Of a stretch of DNA of 26,279 bases, positions 7,045 to 26,279 are shown piece after piece. The position numbers and the translations under genes are program-made. The stretch covers positions 1 to 26,279 of IMG/VR virus record IMGVR_UViG_3300020195_000152; one strand, written 5' to 3'. The DNA is from a virus. The notes under the pieces were generated by a model that saw only the letters and a list, made by a program, of their open reading frames with translations, made no database searches and was not told where the DNA came from. How positions within the stretch are numbered: the stretch's first letter is position 1; every line of letters begins with the position of its first letter.

Positions 7045-8483
7045 ACGCAGCGCTGTCGCTCGTGCAGGGCGGCGTTGAGGTCGACAGCGGGAAGCTCCCG
7101 CCGCACGATCTCCAGGCGGAAGCCGCGGTGCTGTCGGGAATCATCCTCGACCCGAGCGCGCTTGCTCGCGTCGCCGACCTGCTCCGACCGGAGATGTTTT
7201 ACTCGGGTCAGCACGCGCTGCTGTTTGGGGCGTGCGCGAAGCTGCGCGAGGCAGGGCAACCGACCGACGTGCTTACCGTGGAGTCGTACCTCGACGCGCG
7301 AAAGCGGTTGCCTCAGGCTGGCGGCCGTGGGTTCCTCGCAGAGGTTCTTGAGGCGTCACCGGCGATTGCCAACATCGTCGCGCACGCCGAGGTGGTGCAC
7401 TCCGCGTGGCGAGCTCGCGAGCTGATTGGCGCGGCGAGACGCGTCCTCGCCGAGGGCTATCACGGCTACGGCGACATCCAGGACTTCGCGGATCGTTCGG
7501 TCGACGCCATGGGCAAGATCGCCCGCGAGTCGCTGGGCGCGAAGCCCGAAGCAAACATGGTCGTGCTCAAGCGGTTATTCCGCGGGTTTCTCGAGCATGC
7601 GGCGGGGTCGCGAACGCGCGGCATTCCGTACGGCATCCCCGGGATCGACAAGCTCACAGCTGGGATGCACTCGTCGCACAAGATCACCATCTGCGCGATG
7701 ACAGGTCGTGGCAAGACGGTGATGGGAATGCAGGCTTGCATTGCGGCGGCAAAGGCTGGTGTTGGCTCCCTGTTTTTCACGACGGAGATGACCCGTGAAG
7801 AGATGCTCCTGCGTCTCGTCGCGGCGGAGCTAGGCTTCGACACGACCCGGTTCCGAGACCAGAAGGCCTCTCCTGCGGACTGGCAGGACATGTTCCTGCG
7901 CCTCGAGGATATAGCGAAGATGCCAATCGAGATCATCAAAGCGAAAGACCTGCGCATTGACCAGATCGCGGCCACGTCGCGCCGGTACGCAGACGGGATG
8001 CTAAAGACCCACGGCGTGCCGCTCGGCGTCATTGTGCACGACTACGTGCAGCGGATGCCGCCTCCCAACGGTATGGCCAGTGCGCGCAAGTACGACGTCG
8101 TATCGGAAAACACGAAGGGCCTGAAGAAGGTTGCCCAAGAGCTCAAGATTCCGGTCATCGAGCTCGCTCAGATGCGCAAGCACGAGGTCGACCGGGTGAC
8201 GGGGCTGCGGGACAGACCGACGAGCGGTGCCGTCGCGGATAGCCAGGAGATCGAAAAGGAGTCCGACGTCGTCATGTACCTGTATCGCAAACCCCTTATG
8301 CACAACGGTAAGGCTCGAGGCGAGGACGTGTCGTCGATCACATGCGCGCTGGATAAGCAACGTGGCGCGCCACCCGGGGAAGTGCACCTCGTGCTCGAAG
8401 GTCAGTATCAACGTTTCCGCGAAGACGAGTACTTGCCAGGCGGCTATCAGGGCGGCGGCCATTCCTACGATGAGGATCGGTGA
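7041..8483 (+). CDS. dnaB: Replicative DNA helicase, DnaB family
   Basis: A full-length 480-residue hexameric helicase. The N-terminal DnaB domain (about 18-120) has PHDLQAEAAVLSGIILDPSAL. The RecA-like domain has Walker A TGRGKT (221-226), a TEM motif with the catalytic Glu (FFTTEM), the Walker B-like VIVHDYVQRM, and DVVMYLYR then KQRGAPPGEVHL near the C-terminus as in helicase motifs H4 and after. It unwinds DNA 5' to 3' at the fork on the lagging strand. The start is ATGA-coupled to the initiator. The C-terminal tail is Gly/Asp-rich and likely disordered. Together with the clamp and initiator it indicates theta-type phage replication relying on host polymerase and primase, none of which is seen here. 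Confidence 0.95.
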   Translation: MNAALSLVQGGVEVDSGKLPPHDLQAEAAVLSGIILDPSALARVADLLRPEMFYSGQHALLFGACAKLREAGQPTDVLTVESYLDARKRLPQAGGRGFLAEVLEASPAIANIVAHAEVVHSAWRARELIGAARRVLAEGYHGYGDIQDFADRSVDAMGKIARESLGAKPEANMVVLKRLFRGFLEHAAGSRTRGIPYGIPGIDKLTAGMHSSHKITICAMTGRGKTVMGMQACIAAAKAGVGSLFFTTEMTREEMLLRLVAAELGFDTTRFRDQKASPADWQDMFLRLEDIAKMPIEIIKAKDLRIDQIAATSRRYADGMLKTHGVPLGVIVHDYVQRMPPPNGMASARKYDVVSENTKGLKKVAQELKIPVIELAQMRKHEVDRVTGLRDRPTSGAVADSQEIEKESDVVMYLYRKPLMHNGKARGEDVSSITCALDKQRGAPPGEVHLVLEGQYQRFREDEYLPGGYQGGGHSYDEDR

Positions 8484-20727: not shown

Positions 20728-21167
20728 TGGCCAGCATCGACGCATCGGAGTTCCTGCGCAACCTCGCCACCATCGAGCGTCGCGTGCTGGACTCCGCGCG
20801 TCTCGGGATGGCTCAGGTGGCGAAGGTCGCCTACCGGAACGCGAAGGAAACGACGCTGTTCAAGGACCGCACGGGTGAGCTCCGCGGAACGATGGATATC
20901 GTCGACCGCGGCGCGTACTCCAAGCGGCTCATATTCCGCGCAAAACACGCCAAATTCGTCAACGACGGCACTAAAAAGCACGTCATTCTGCCCAAGAATG
21001 CCCCTTTTTTGCGCTTCGTCATCGGCGGACGCGTCATCTTCGCCAAGAAGGTGAACCATCCGGGCACGGCCAAGCGGCCGGTCCTCGAGAACGCGGCGGC
21101 CGCAGGTAGCCAGGCCATGAGCGTCATCCTCCACGAGGGTGCCGAGAACGCGGTCAAGTACCCGTGA
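20727..21167 (+). CDS. HK97-gp10-like neck/tail-completion protein
   Basis: A 146-residue protein resembling HK97 gp10-type minor tail/neck proteins. It has an N-terminal helix (LRNLATIERRVLDSARLGMAQVAKVAYRNAKE), the RTGELRGTMDIVDRG turn-strand, and AKFVNDGTKKHVILPKNAPFLRF, the conserved Y/F-x-x-G-T motif. It ends in a helix HPGTAKRPVLENAAA similar to the P-x-x-x-P-A ending of the family. These bind the head-tail interface. It starts at ATG 20727 in a TGATG overlap and ends in GTGA with the next gene. Confidence 0.82.
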   Translation: MASIDASEFLRNLATIERRVLDSARLGMAQVAKVAYRNAKETTLFKDRTGELRGTMDIVDRGAYSKRLIFRAKHAKFVNDGTKKHVILPKNAPFLRFVIGGRVIFAKKVNHPGTAKRPVLENAAAAGSQAMSVILHEGAENAVKYP

Positions 21168-22174
21168 CGCTCGGCGGCTACGGCGAGTGGGGACACGGCG
21201 ACGTCGTCTTCCCGCTCGACGGCTCCGTCTCGGACTCGACACCGCTGCTCGAACTCGCCGATCCGGCGCTCGCGGCAGTGCTCGCGTTCTTGCCTGAGGT
21301 GCTGCAGCTTCAGCTCGGCGCCGCGCTGACGGCCTACGCCGCGATCGATGGGATCGTCATCTCCGACGCGGTGATCTCGTCGACGAACGCCGAGCCGGTC
21401 CCGGCCCTCTATGCCGACCGCACCCGCTTTCCTTTCTTCGCCCTCTACCGCAAAGGCGAGACCTACGCGACGCACACCGTGGCGTTCGACAAGAGCGTCT
21501 CTGAGTGGGAGTTCGCCTACGTGCTGCCGCCGCTGATGCCGCAGCCGCAAGAGCGCATCGTACCCATCCTGCATGCCGTCGCTTCGGTCATCCGCAAGGC
21601 GCTGCATGTGGGCTACCATCCGCTCTACGAGGACGGCGCAGAGGTGCTGAAGGACGCGGGGATCATGTCCTCGCGGCTCGTCTCCGTGCGCTACGAGCGC
21701 TACGAGCGCATGGCAAGCGCCGCGGGCAGCAACGCCGAGCAGTTCTTCCGCGCCGTGGTCGGCACCATCGAGGTTGTCGAGGTGGACAGGGCGGTCGTCG
21801 GTGCCTTCGAGGCGTTCACCGGCGCCAACGTCAACGTCGACCAGGAGTCGGAGGACGGCACCACCATCGCCGACGGGGTCGCGCTCGCCACCTCTCAAAA
21901 GCCGACAGTCACACTCGTCTCGCCGAACAGCGGCACCAAGGCGGGCAACACTGCCATCACCATCACCGGCACGCTGTTCGCTCCGGGTCCGACGCCGCGC
22001 GTCTTCATCGGCGGAGCCGAGTGCACTTCGGTGGTCCGCGTCAGCACGACGTCGATGACCGCTCGGACGCCGGCGCACGATGCTTACCCGACCTTCATGG
22101 CGGATGTCGTCGTGACCAACGGCGACGGGCAGAGCGGCACGCTGAGCGCTGGATACACGTTCACGACGCCGTAG
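21164..22174 (+). CDS. Tail-terminator-like protein with C-terminal IPT/TIG domain
   Basis: A 336-residue protein beginning at GTG 21164 (GTGA overlap). Residues 1-230 form a globular domain with FPFFALYRKGETY, SEWEFAYVLPPLMPQPQERIVPILHAVASVIRKAL and a DAGIMSS strand. In the Mu gene order (gp36, gp37, gp38, sheath) this is the gp37 or tail-terminator position. Residues 247-336 are an IPT/TIG immunoglobulin-like domain: TLVSPNSGTKAGNTAITITG, then an RVFIGGAECTSV strand and VVVTNGDGQSGTLSAGYTFT at the end. Such domains often bind carbohydrate or protein surfaces and are unusual on a tail terminator. Confidence 0.7.
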   Translation: MTLGGYGEWGHGDVVFPLDGSVSDSTPLLELADPALAAVLAFLPEVLQLQLGAALTAYAAIDGIVISDAVISSTNAEPVPALYADRTRFPFFALYRKGETYATHTVAFDKSVSEWEFAYVLPPLMPQPQERIVPILHAVASVIRKALHVGYHPLYEDGAEVLKDAGIMSSRLVSVRYERYERMASAAGSNAEQFFRAVVGTIEVVEVDRAVVGAFEAFTGANVNVDQESEDGTTIADGVALATSQKPTVTLVSPNSGTKAGNTAITITGTLFAPGPTPRVFIGGAECTSVVRVSTTSMTARTPAHDAYPTFMADVVVTNGDGQSGTLSAGYTFTTP

Positions 22175-22226: not shown

Positions 22227-22607
22227 ATGACACCTAAGAAGCTGCGCGTTCGTGCGCGCGGGGACGCACTCGTCCAAGATCACGAGAGACTCGCCGCGGG
22301 CACCAACGCATTCATCGGTCGCACCTTCGCGCCACTCGCGCCGACCGAGGATGGCCTCAACGCTGCGCGCGAGGCTGCAGGGTTCGACGCCGACAGCATC
22401 GAGCCTGGTCAGTGGGGGTTCATCCCCACCAGCGCCGAGGTCACCGTGCCGAACCGCGCGGAATACATCAAGGCGCTGAAGGACGGCGACCTGCTCGCTG
22501 CCGACGACGCGACGGCCAAGGCCGCCGGTGTCGAAGCGACGATGCCATCGCCGCCGAACGCACTGCACGACATGAAGCCCTACGACGCGAAGGATGGTGA
22601 CCGATGA
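22227..22607 (+). CDS. DUF2635-like protein before the sheath gene (126 aa)
   Basis: The N-terminus KKLRVRARGDALVQDHERLAAG looks like a longer version of the small Mu gp38/DUF2635 proteins that precede sheath genes. The middle has QWGFIPTSAEVTVPNRAEYIKALKDGDLLAADDATAKAAG and the end is Pro/Asp-rich. GGAG (22218-22221) precedes the ATG at 5-nt spacing, and the stop is ATGA-coupled to the sheath. The synteny is strong but the family match is by eye. Confidence 0.6.
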   Translation: MTPKKLRVRARGDALVQDHERLAAGTNAFIGRTFAPLAPTEDGLNAAREAAGFDADSIEPGQWGFIPTSAEVTVPNRAEYIKALKDGDLLAADDATAKAAGVEATMPSPPNALHDMKPYDAKDGDR

Positions 22608-24139
22608 GCGCGCCTGCAATTGCCCCGGTCGGCCTGACGTCGTCCGGCCCGTTGCCCGGCATCTTCATAGAGATCAACTTCGCGCAGGGCCCGAGCAATG
22701 GCAGCGGCCTCACGCGCGCCATCCTGGCTCTCGCGAACAAGAGCGCGGCAGGTACGGCCACCGTCGACAGCGCGATCTACGGTCCGGACAGCGTGACGCC
22801 GCTGCAGACCGAGGCGCAGATGATCACCCTTGGTGGTCCTGGCTCCGAAGCTCATCGCATGTATCGCCGCATGGCCGCGATCACCGGTGGACAGAGCGGC
22901 CCGCCGGTCTACTGGCTGTTCGTCACCGAATCCGTGGGCTCCAAGGCCACCGGAACGGTCACGATCGTCAACACGGCCACGGGCGACGCCACCCATCGCC
23001 TCTGGGTGGGAGACGAGTACGTCGATACAGGCATCGTCTCCGGGGATCTGATCGGCACCATCGCCACGGCCATCGCCGCGAGCGTCAACGCCAAAACGCA
23101 CTGGCCGGTGACGGCTGCTGTGGTTGCCGGTGAAGTTACACTCACCGCAAAGCAGAACGGCCTCCGTGGCAACTGGATTCGATTCCAGGCCGCCATCATC
23201 GCACCATCGTCGATCGCCACGACCACGACGGCGACGACCGATGCTTTCCTCGCGGGCGGCACGACGGCCGACTCGAACACCACGGCACTCGCGACGATCT
23301 TGCCGCGCTGGTACTACCAGATCGTCTCGGCCGCCGACGACGGGACGCAGCTCGGCGCGCTCGCCAGCCAGATCGCTACCCAGGCGCTCGCCACCAACGG
23401 TATCCGCCAGCGTGCGGTCGCCGGATCGGTGAACACCAGCGGCGCGGAGATCACCATCGCCACGGGCGTCAACAGCCCGCTCGTCGAGGTCATCCACTCC
23501 GAGAAGAGCCCCTTCACTCCGGCGGAGCTCGCGGCGAACAACGCCATGGTCTACGCGATGGAGGAGTCCGACGAGCTCGGCTTCCGCACTAACTTCATCG
23601 GCTACGGCAACAGCTCGAAGACGCAGCCGCTATGGAAGGTGCCCGCGCCGCGGCTCGCGAGTGCGTGGCCGACGCCGGCGACGATCCGCAGCCTGCTGAA
23701 CAACGGCATCACGCCCATCGGCGTGAACACGAACGGCACGACGTACATCGTCGATCGGTTCACGACGCGCAGCCTCAACGGCTCGCAGCCCGAGACGCGC
23801 ATCCGCGAGGCGCACAAGGTCACGATCTGCCATCGCTTTGCAGACGCGCTTAGCCGGCGCATCGTGGAGGCGAGCGACGGCAAGGTCATCGGCGACGATC
23901 CGCCGAACGGTCAGTCGCCGGGGCCGAACATGTTCACGCCGCGCACGGGCAAGCAGATCGTCTACCTGACCATCGACGAGTTCGCCTCGAACTCCAAGGT
24001 GCAGCGCGCCGACGAGATCAAGGCTGGCAGCGTCATTCAGCGTGAGGCGAACCCGACAAGTCGACTCGGGATAAGGGTCCCGCTGCAGACGATCGACAAC
24101 TTCAGGCAAGCCGCGATCATCGTCGACCAGGTCGCTTAG
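22604..24139 (+). CDS. Contractile tail sheath protein (Mu gpL-like)
   Basis: The 511-residue length fits contractile sheaths of the Mu gpL group. The N-terminus has PLPGIFIEINFAQGP, the usual P-G-x-Y/F-x-E-x handshake arm. The C-terminal half contains ITPIGVNTNGTTYIVDRFTTRSLNG, a signature of sheath C-terminal domains, and ends with a long region FRQAAIIVDQVA. A large variable insertion (about residues 110-230) is Thr/Ala-rich and probably surface exposed. Sheath subunits polymerise around the tube and contract to drive it into the host. Coupled to the DUF2635-like gene by ATGA. It defines the phage as a myovirus-type. Confidence 0.92.
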   Translation: MSAPAIAPVGLTSSGPLPGIFIEINFAQGPSNGSGLTRAILALANKSAAGTATVDSAIYGPDSVTPLQTEAQMITLGGPGSEAHRMYRRMAAITGGQSGPPVYWLFVTESVGSKATGTVTIVNTATGDATHRLWVGDEYVDTGIVSGDLIGTIATAIAASVNAKTHWPVTAAVVAGEVTLTAKQNGLRGNWIRFQAAIIAPSSIATTTTATTDAFLAGGTTADSNTTALATILPRWYYQIVSAADDGTQLGALASQIATQALATNGIRQRAVAGSVNTSGAEITIATGVNSPLVEVIHSEKSPFTPAELAANNAMVYAMEESDELGFRTNFIGYGNSSKTQPLWKVPAPRLASAWPTPATIRSLLNNGITPIGVNTNGTTYIVDRFTTRSLNGSQPETRIREAHKVTICHRFADALSRRIVEASDGKVIGDDPPNGQSPGPNMFTPRTGKQIVYLTIDEFASNSKVQRADEIKAGSVIQREANPTSRLGIRVPLQTIDNFRQAAIIVDQVA

Positions 24140-24300: not shown

Positions 24301-24675
24301 ATGAGCGATAGCAAGATCTACAGCACTGGCCAGGTCACCATGGACAACAAGCTGGTCACCGAGGCCGGGAGCATCACGCTCAACAAGAACCCGAACGTCA
24401 ATCCCGTGATGACGCTCGGAAACGGCTTCGCCGGCATCAACATCGGCGCCGGCGTGTGCGAGCTCACGATCGAGACGGCCGTGCCCTCCGCTAATTTTGA
24501 AATCAATCCAGATCCGTTCATGCGGGTGGGGAAGCAGGTCGAGGTCGGCGTCGTCATCGCGAACCGTCAGACGGTGGCGAAGATGTTCATCACCGGCGCC
24601 AACTACTCGGTCGGCGTCAACCAGCCGACGTCGCTCTCGATCAGTTTCATCGGTCCGCTCGCTGACTTCGAGTGA
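24301..24675 (+). CDS. Tail tube protein (Mu gpM-like)
   Basis: A 124-residue beta-rich protein immediately after the sheath, the expected position of the tube. It contains KIYSTGQVTMDNKLVTEAGSITLN, GNGFAGINIGAGVCELTIETAVP and a C-terminal SLSISFIGPLADFE strand, matching the small single-domain tube proteins whose rings form the rigid inner tail. It has SD GGGAG 9 nt before the ATG and is coupled to the chaperone gene by a GTGATG overlap. No insertion domain is seen. Confidence 0.82.
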   Translation: MSDSKIYSTGQVTMDNKLVTEAGSITLNKNPNVNPVMTLGNGFAGINIGAGVCELTIETAVPSANFEINPDPFMRVGKQVEVGVVIANRQTVAKMFITGANYSVGVNQPTSLSISFIGPLADFE

Positions 24676-25295
24676 TGGCGGGACCGCCTGACATCGACGC
24701 GAGCGCGCTATGGGTGCAGCTGACGGCACTCCCGCGTCCTCATCGCGTCGTCGACTTCCCGAGGATGGGGCCCGATGGTGAGCCCGTGGGGCAGCTGGCA
24801 ATCTTCGTCCTCACGCAGGAAGAACAGGTTGCGGCCAACACTGAAGCCGAGAGGTTTTCGCGCAAGCTCCTGAAAGACGGCAAGCGTGGGGATCTCGGTT
24901 ACGAGGCCATCTTCAACAACGAAGGTGCTGTTCAGGTGCTCTATCGCGCATGTCGCGACGCCGACAACCTGAAGAAGCCAGCCTTTCCCACGCCGAACGC
25001 CATCCGTGAGCACCTGACGGCCGACGAGGTCGGGACGCTATTCGAGCACTACTTGACGGTGCAGCTCGAGCTCGGTCCGATCATGGCGTCGCTCTCTCAG
25101 GTGGAGCTTGACGCATGGGTCGACAAGATCGCCGAGGGCGGCGCGTATTTTTTAGATTTGCTCTCGCGAGAAATGCAGAAAGCGCTTCTGATTTCTATGG
25201 CATCGCGCCTGGCGAGCTCTGCGACTGGCAGTGGCTCGTCTGGTACGCCGCGAGACGTACCGGCGGCCACCGATGATGTGCAGGTAGAGGCGTAA
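24675..25295 (+). CDS. Tail assembly chaperone, zero-frame product
   Basis: A 206-residue cytoplasmic protein between tube and tape measure, the standard place of tail assembly chaperones (lambda gpG, P2 gpE, Mu gp41). It has a folded N-terminal part (RPHRVVDFPRMGPDGEPVGQLAIFVLTQEEQ), a mainly helical middle (TPNAIREHLTADEVGTLFEHYLTVQLEL), and, after codon 160, a low-complexity Ser/Gly-rich end. A slippery T TTT TTA at 25148-25154 lies in the right phase for -1 frameshifting, and the -1 frame after it is open. GTG 24672 is an alternative start by one codon. The product would coat the tape measure while the tube assembles. Confidence 0.8.
   Translation: MAGPPDIDASALWVQLTALPRPHRVVDFPRMGPDGEPVGQLAIFVLTQEEQVAANTEAERFSRKLLKDGKRGDLGYEAIFNNEGAVQVLYRACRDADNLKKPAFPTPNAIREHLTADEVGTLFEHYLTVQLELGPIMASLSQVELDAWVDKIAEGGAYFLDLLSREMQKALLISMASRLASSATGSGSSGTPRDVPAATDDVQVEA
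25148..25154 (+). promoter_or_regulatory. Candidate -1 programmed frameshift site (T TTT TTA)
   Basis: The canonical slippery heptamer X XXY YYZ is present with zero-frame codons TTT and TTA at 25149-25154. Phage tail chaperone genes often use such sites; P2 uses a very similar T-run slippery sequence in gene E. Sequence and phase are seen directly. Use is inferred. Confidence 0.6.
25154..25276 (+). CDS. -1 frame extension of the tail assembly chaperone
   Basis: After a slip at 25148-25154, reading continues from AGA 25154 to TGA 25274-25276, adding 40 residues and giving a total of about 200. The extension reads ASDFYGIAPGELCDWQWLVW and ends YAARRTGGHR, a Trp-rich sequence unlike the low-complexity zero-frame end. 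From about 25199, third codon positions are about 21 of 25 G/C in the -1 frame versus about two-thirds in the zero frame (hand counts). This suggests that the -1 frame carries real coding selection. It would correspond to the T-like domain that recruits the tape measure or tube. Confidence 0.55.
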   Translation, partial: RFALARNAESASDFYGIAPGELCDWQWLVWYAARRTGGHR

Positions 25296-25296
25296 C

Positions 25297-26279
25297 GTGC
25301 CCGCGCCGATTTTCATTGATTTTTTGGCGCGCGGGGTGCCAGAATTTAGCCGCGCGCTGAAGACGGTTTCGGACTCGGTGGCGAGGTATGAGTCGGGACA
25401 GACACGCGCCGGGGTTGCAGGCGCTCGCACGCGCACGACGGCGGTGGAGAAAGAGGCGCGCGACAAGATTCGCGCGATGCAGAAGGCCGACCGCGAGCAC
25501 TCCAAGGCGCTCTCACACGGCCTTCGCGAGGCCGAGAAGGCCGCACGCGCCGAGGCGCTGGCCGTCGAACGCGGTGCACGTGACCGCGTGCGCGCGATGC
25601 AGCGCGCCGATGATGCGGTCAAGCGCATTCGTGAGCAGTCCGTGCGCGAAACGGCGCGCGCGGAAGAGCAGAAAAACGCCGAATCGGCGAAGTGGGTCCG
25701 AAAGCGCGAGCGCGAGAGCGACTTTGCGCGACATCGCATAGTCAACACCATTGGCGGTGCGGCGGCATCCGGCTTCAGGTCTGGTCTCGGACGGGTGGCG
25801 CAGGCCACGCAGCAGGTCGCGGGCACGGTCCTGAGCCTCGGCGGCGGCTTCTCGGTGGCTGACAGCGTGCAACGCGCGAGCGGGCTGCGCGGCGAGGCTG
25901 CGGACCTCGCTAATAGCGGTTTCAACGCAAACGCGCCGAACGCCGCGAATCGCACCAAACGGTCGACGAATGAACTTGTCGGCGCGTCGCGCGCGGTCGG
26001 CATCAAGTACGGCATCGGCGCCGAAGACGCCATGAAGGGCCTCGGCGAGTTCACCAAGGTGACCGGCGACCTCGATACGGGCATGAAGATGCTCGACGAG
26101 ATGGCCGCGCTCGCTCGCGCGACTGGCTCGTCGCTCGCTGACGTTGCCGCCGCCGGCGCCAACGTTGCCGCCGTCCTCCCGGAGACAGCCGACAAGGGCG
26201 CGAAGACGATGGCGGTGCTACGCGGCATCGCGGGTCAGGGCAAACTCGGCGCCGTCGAGATGAGCGACCTTGCCAAGCA
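25297..26279 (+). CDS. Tail tape measure protein (3' partial)
   Basis: The frame from GTG 25297 is open to the window end (327 codons). GAGG (25287-25290) lies 6 nt before the start. Residues 1-40 read PAPIFIDFLARGVPEFSRALKTVSDSV, a typical tape-measure opening. Residues 40-150 are an Arg/Glu/Lys/Ala coiled coil (REAEKAARAEALAVERGARDR). Next come a Gly/Ala-rich hydrophobic stretch (GTVLSLGGGFSVADSVQ) and helices with EFTKVTGDLDTGMKMLDEMAAL. The family sets tail length and is ejected through the tube. It is the gene expected after the chaperone. The C-terminal domains, possibly enzymatic, are beyond the window. Confidence 0.88.
   Translation, partial: MPAPIFIDFLARGVPEFSRALKTVSDSVARYESGQTRAGVAGARTRTTAVEKEARDKIRAMQKADREHSKALSHGLREAEKAARAEALAVERGARDRVRAMQRADDAVKRIREQSVRETARAEEQKNAESAKWVRKRERESDFARHRIVNTIGGAAASGFRSGLGRVAQATQQVAGTVLSLGGGFSVADSVQRASGLRGEAADLANSGFNANAPNAANRTKRSTNELVGASRAVGIKYGIGAEDAMKGLGEFTKVTGDLDTGMKMLDEMAALARATGSSLADVAAAGANVAAVLPETADKGAKTMAVLRGIAGQGKLGAVEMSDLAK

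Follow-up and report, generated by a model that had tools for sequence, protein, structure and literature searches.

A conserved, probable -1 frameshift arrangement with a long dual-coding overlap in the tail assembly chaperone gene of a contractile-tailed phage family

Does the tail assembly chaperone (TAC) gene of this phage specify a second product through a -1 programmed frameshift and, if so, does the slip exchange one C-terminus for another of equal length? Both had been proposed in a sequence-only reading of the locus, which held that the two products would swap tails rather than one of them gaining an addition. The window, i.e. the whole stretch of 26,279 nucleotides that was analysed, is a complete IMG/VR contig of GC-rich DNA and carries the following features:

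22604-24139, plus strand: contractile tail sheath gene (PHROG 165, E 1.4e-49)
24301-24675, plus strand: likely tail tube gene, identified from its position directly 5' of the chaperone gene
24675-25295, plus strand: tail assembly chaperone, zero frame, 206 aa (ATG 24675, TAA 25293-25295)
24675-25147, plus strand: portion common to both products, 157 whole codons plus 2 nt
25134-25142, plus strand: Shine-Dalgarno (SD)-like stretch GAGGGCGGC, putative stimulator, 5' of the slip site
25148-25154, plus strand: slippery heptamer T_TTT_TTA (zero-frame codons TTT TTA; -1 codons TTT TTT)
25148-25276, plus strand: -1 frame tail, 42 codons plus TGA 25274-25276, nested in the zero-frame gene
25155-25295, plus strand: zero-frame tail after the slip, a predicted helix (residues about 165-185) followed by a disordered Ser/Thr/Pro/Asp-rich end
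25297-26279, plus strand: start (GTG) of the tape measure protein gene (weak PHROG 167 match, E 0.019)

The chaperone ATG overlaps the stop codon of the tube gene as TGATG, with a GTG at 24672 as an alternative start, and the tape measure gene, which begins 1 base past the chaperone zero-frame stop, runs off the contig. The gene order of sheath, tube, TAC and tape measure places the chaperone between tube and tape measure, the position characteristic of a TAC. Further upstream, between a neck-type gene and the sheath gene, an ORF at 21164-22174 encodes a C-terminal IPT/TIG domain (Pfam E 5e-13), which is unusual there.

Searches of Pfam, PHROG and NCBIfam with the zero-frame, -1 and fused proteins returned no match to a curated family. 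TAC families are very diverse and a profile match is supporting rather than defining; membership here rests on fold and position. The AlphaFold model of the zero-frame protein is confident at residues about 20-130 (pLDDT mostly above 90), and pLDDT lies under 50 from residue 185, the last 22 residues being predicted disordered. The best PDB match of the common domain is the HK97 TAC (2ob9; Z 9.6, rmsd 3.1, 103 of 107 residues), followed by YqbN (3klu; Z 7.9), with unrelated rows at Z about 3, and named TACs are among its top BFVD matches. Gene position and the fold match to 2ob9 bear out the chaperone identity assigned earlier.

The heptamer lies in the X_XXY_YYZ phase of the zero frame (TAT TTT TTA). 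Slippage there would lead into the -1 tail, FFRFALARNAESASDFYGIAPGELCDWQWLVWYAARRTGGHR, and yield a product of 158+42 = 200 aa, the stops of the two frames being 19 nt apart (25276 versus 25295; 200 versus 206 aa). The sequence-only reading had its coordinates and arithmetic right, both in the exact slippery phase of the heptamer and in the product lengths of about 200 and 206 aa; the tail that it called Trp-rich has 3 Trp among 42 residues. The peptides predicted at the slip region are IAEGGAYFFR for the transframe product and IAEGGAYFLDLLSR for the zero frame. The higher third-position GC once credited to the -1 frame comes down to a one-codon difference (0.595 versus 0.571 over 42 codons, or 25 versus 24) and disappears without the heptamer codons (0.62 versus 0.62), so that it carries no weight as evidence. 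When synonymous codons of the window were redrawn, the -1 frame stayed open in 54% of trials (P=0.54), and the zero frame, given the -1 frame, in 86%; in the window alone, an open -1 frame could be chance. Little can be concluded from the window by itself, and the argument for a frameshift is drawn from its relatives.

Four contigs were reached through the sheath protein and the phage record MW202476 through tblastn, and the chaperone alignment brought the relatives to eighteen loci in all. With repeats of the same contig and the near-duplicate pair L016/L017 collapsed, 19 distinct loci are available, including the window. They fall into two subfamilies, A (the window's) and B, and the relatives are 23-63% identical to the window chaperone (aligned set of 18 homologous zero-frame proteins). 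A host search of genome_contigs with the subfamily B alignment gave no match, nor did single-sequence scans of viral_contigs and genome_contigs.

An X_XXY_YYZ heptamer stands at the homologous place in 18 of the 19 distinct loci, against a background of 0.0023 in-phase heptamers per codon in long ORFs of the same loci. Its letters vary and include TTTTTTA (the window and L023), TTTTTTC (L004), CCCTTTC, CCCTTTG, TTTCCCT and CCCTTTA, the last being the commonest; the TTTCCCT of L007 sits one codon upstream of the position in the other loci. Loss of the heptamer, or stops in the -1 frame of relatives, had been named as grounds for abandoning the proposal. The -1 frame is open in all loci, and the heptamer is absent from a single one (L014, 4489-4502), where TCCTTTTTAT replaces the canonical motif, yet the -1 tail is retained. 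Once the aligned relatives are included, an in-phase heptamer at the homologous site is clearly more than chance. Two relatives also differ in gene content nearby. In L006, tandem tube-like ORFs (7626-8000 and 8021-8440) lie in the sheath-to-chaperone interval, apparently a duplicated tube gene, and in L007 an extra ORF (7554-8174) in the sheath-tube interval has HNH-endonuclease-like Cys motifs and is possibly a homing endonuclease insertion.

Constraint was assessed by fixing the amino acids of one frame, redrawing the synonymous codons and comparing similarity in the other frame. With z scores somewhat inflated by shared ancestry (z 3.0-4.3 for the whole pre-slip region), similarity in the -1 frame exceeds the expectation imposed by the zero frame at z 17 in A and z 24 in B, and zero-frame similarity exceeds the -1-only expectation at z 8.2 in A and 15.0 in B, the latter excess being weaker (z 4.6) over the distal half of the overlap in A. 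A sliding control was hence made with segments of 25 columns, in which z for the -1 frame lies between -0.2 and 2.3 upstream of the heptamer, rises to 9.7-14.1 within the overlap and drops to about zero past the -1 stop; for subfamily A alone the values are 0.3-2.1 upstream and 9.7-13.9 from the heptamer to the -1 stop. Protein-level selection on the -1 frame is found from the slip onward, with its onset at the heptamer. Divergence at the three codon positions flips at the slip as well, from.44/.33/.64 to.44/.53/.48 in A and from.41/.33/.62 to.34/.47/.46 in B, and the post-slip pattern of both subfamilies is intermediate between 'zero only' and '-1 only'. The best conserved part of the zero-frame tail is its first 18 codons, a predicted helix; in B the zero frame continues past the -1 stop and closes with another conserved, helix-like stretch. 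At the sequence level, constraint acts on both frames and is stronger on the -1 frame. The conserved heptamer position and the frame conservation that starts at the heptamer uphold the -1 programmed frameshift as originally proposed and, on these comparative grounds, the arrangement is real, conserved and unannotated.

The dual-coding overlap spans 30-83 codons across the family, and the end of the -1 frame minus that of the zero frame ranges from -163 to +80 nt. The equal-length C-termini of the sequence-only reading are accordingly a near-equality of the window (19 nt) and not a conserved property. A swap of tails rather than an addition describes the window and 13 other loci, in which the zero frame outlasts the -1 frame (14 of 19; by only 4 nt in L012) and the C-terminal extension of the strict lambda/P2 layout is absent; the reverse is seen in five loci (L006, L009, L011, L014 and L024), where the -1 frame ends 23-80 nt beyond the zero frame. 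The near-equal lengths of the window are one point on a continuum, and what the family conserves are the slip site and a long dual-coding overlap. The start of the tape measure gene usually abuts the furthest-downstream stop, namely the zero-frame stop in most loci (0-9 nt) and the -1 stop in L009 and L014, with L023 as an exception at 45 nt.

Modelled with its relatives, the -1 tail of L018 is predicted to be compact (pLDDT 92.8) and consists of a helix, a hairpin and two helices. A compact fold is less sure for the window's own -1 tail, because the hairpin segment present in the L018 homologue is absent from it. Neither BFVD nor the PDB chains compared yielded a fold match to the -1 tail, and there was no profile match to Pfam P2_GpE or to any Pfam or PHROG family. 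In hhalign, the motif xfgvxPxeLxd of the -1 tail was placed opposite the P2 E', lambda T and SfV tails, with P-values of 0.02-0.08 that apply at the level of the motif only; the same motif was responsible each time, and the signal is too weak to claim homology to any of the three.

Affinity for the anti-SD sequence shows a single sharp peak 9-13 nt upstream of the heptamer over 18 loci (-7.3 versus a mean of -2.3 kcal/mol), and in the window the 7-codon stretch there ranks within the top 3% for the gene. These codons double as code for the conserved EGG residues, and the synonymous preference for SD-like codons is slight. The downstream stem that the sequence-only reading had proposed to look for did not materialize, RNAalifold giving no conserved structure in subfamily A or B, and single-sequence folds downstream are unremarkable on average. 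Upstream SD-like elements are arranged in much the same way in dnaX, and comparison of the loci points to an upstream element as the likely stimulator of slippage.

The best explanation overall, and very probably the correct one, is that most ribosomes synthesize the 206-aa chaperone and a slipped minority a 200-aa product, the two having alternative C-termini. Its foundations are the heptamer, the two conserved frames, the predicted fold of the common domain and the gene position. The zero-frame product of most ribosomes would consist of an HK97-TAC-like domain followed by a helix and a disordered end rich in Ser, Thr and Asp. In vivo, a minority of ribosomes, a few per cent by analogy, would slip back one base at T_TTT_TTA, probably aided by the SD-like stretch about 9-13 nt upstream, and would finish with the small domain to give the 200-aa product. 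The common domain would coat the tape measure protein and the -1 tail would recruit tail tube subunits, by analogy with lambda gpG/gpGT, from which we infer a T-domain-like role for the -1 tail. Translational coupling may be part of the reason why the zero frame continues, ribosomes that terminate there being brought to the tape measure start, 0-9 nt away in most loci. In lambda, gpG and gpGT are made at 30:1, G binding the tape measure and T the tube (PMC5009743), and a slippage of 6-7% has been measured for HK97-like chaperones (PMC3711429). Given this division of labour in lambda and these slippage rates, the same division is likely here, and the -1 tail would be the part that recruits the tube.

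The frameshift may be real and the zero-frame tail nonetheless a by-product, kept open by base composition and by the -1 frame fixing the DNA, a reading to which we give somewhat less than an even chance. The tail would then at most carry ribosomes to the tape measure gene, and the functional pair would be the short chaperone and the T-like product, which is credible in the same measure. Such a by-product would fit the probability of an open zero frame given the -1 frame (0.86 in the window and above 0.7 for five of nine A loci), the predicted disorder of the last 22 residues, the freedom of the zero-frame end relative to the -1 end (-163 to +80 nt) and the tape measure start within 0-9 nt of the zero-frame stop in most loci. 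However, it leaves unexplained why zero-frame similarity exceeds the -1-only expectation (z 8.2 in A, 15.0 in B), why the first 18 codons, with their predicted helix, are the best conserved and why B has a further conserved stretch past the -1 stop. This stretch suggests that the zero-frame tail has a job of its own in subfamily B, A being less clear. That the frameshift swaps functional C-terminal domains, with both nested tails selected for different partners and an overlap of up to 83 codons coupling their evolution, strikes us as rather doubtful.

Ribosomal slippage as the source of the -1 product has itself been weighed against other origins. Transcriptional slippage could be imagined on the T run, which has six T in the window and nine consecutive T in L004, but most relatives have CCCTTTA, CCCTTTC or TTTCCCT, without a long homopolymer, and the X_XXY_YYZ phase is conserved rather than the run length; in view of this variety of heptamers, it was rejected as highly improbable. 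We think it equally hard to believe that the -1 tail is a separate small protein, initiated internally from an SD-like stretch that acts as a ribosome-binding site. That stretch is present and the window has a -1 frame ATG 11 codons before the heptamer, but the ATG is upstream of the stretch, in 8 of 18 loci the open -1 stretch upstream lacks any ATG, GTG or TTG, no locus has a start within 3 codons after the heptamer start, and conservation of the -1 frame is absent 5' of the heptamer; internal initiation was rejected for lack of start codons. A sequencing or assembly error, or a decaying gene, might be suspected of a single metagenomic contig, but the same arrangement recurs in independent contigs of many metagenomes and in MW202476, which makes this explanation practically negligible.

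A programmed ribosomal frameshift into a nested tail is easily overlooked. Frameshift finders seek a second ORF running past the first stop, and a nested -1 ORF interrupts nothing; PRFect works on adjacent overlapping genes and weights sites near an in-frame stop (PMC10885494). Since the -1 ORF is nested and the gene uninterrupted, the homologous gene of MW202476 is annotated as one hypothetical protein. In the literature searched we found no description of the nested layout, of which an earlier mention is possible. The 19 natural variants, in which the -1 frame outlasts the zero frame or the reverse, offer a way to ask the role of each chaperone tail, and the family provides a clean phage example of dual coding, with constraint measurable in both frames.

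The arrangement would work like the lambda G/GT frameshift, although it falls outside the strict G/GT layout. As in lambda, the gene lies between those for the major tail protein and the tape measure, an in-phase -1 heptamer is found near its 3' end, and a minority product would have a different C-terminus. In contrast, lambda uses GGGAAAG, has 8 zero-frame codons after the slip and a far longer -1 product, whereas the window family reads 30-83 codons in both frames and its zero frame usually ends last. P2 E/E+E' shares the contractile tail, the same place in the gene order, a heptamer (TTTTTTG) resembling the TTTTTTA of the window and a small -1 tail with an aromatic/Arg-rich motif, but in P2 the zero frame stops 9 codons past the slip, and E' extends a further 152 nt; loci L006, L009, L011, L014 and L024 approach this layout. 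Zero-frame codons after the slip number 8 in lambda, 9 in P2, 6 in SfV and 33 in a Klebsiella phage, the -1 frame running well past the zero-frame stop in all four. The latter phage, ST405-OXA48phi1.1, has AAAAAAG 33 codons before the chaperone zero-frame stop and a 70-aa -1 tail (L031:4603-4815), annotated as two separate ORFs instead of a frameshift. The HK97 TAC (2ob9) and YqbN (3klu) share the fold of the common N-terminal domain, a sequence-family match being undetected. In the Mu-like chaperones of Burkholderia phage KS10 (L025:971-1207) and Curvibacter phage TJ1 (L030:4854-5102), a similar +1 (= -2) frame near the 3' end (46% over 54 aa) ends 31-52 nt after the zero-frame stop, which suggests, from sequence similarity, a nested -2/+1 frameshift of the kind found in Mu; none was reported in the paper describing KS10 (PMC2628397).

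Nested transframe ORFs that provide an alternative C-terminus occur beyond phages too, in RNA viruses, as in alphavirus TF. Arterivirus nsp2TF likewise has its transframe ORF inside the zero-frame ORF (PMC5009743). Both differ from the window family in that they concern unrelated genes and hosts, and the phage family would depend on bacterial ribosomes and an upstream SD-like stretch instead of a 3' structure. Frameshifting in chaperone genes is itself known, textbook biology; what is unusual here is an overlap of 30-83 codons in which both frames are constrained.
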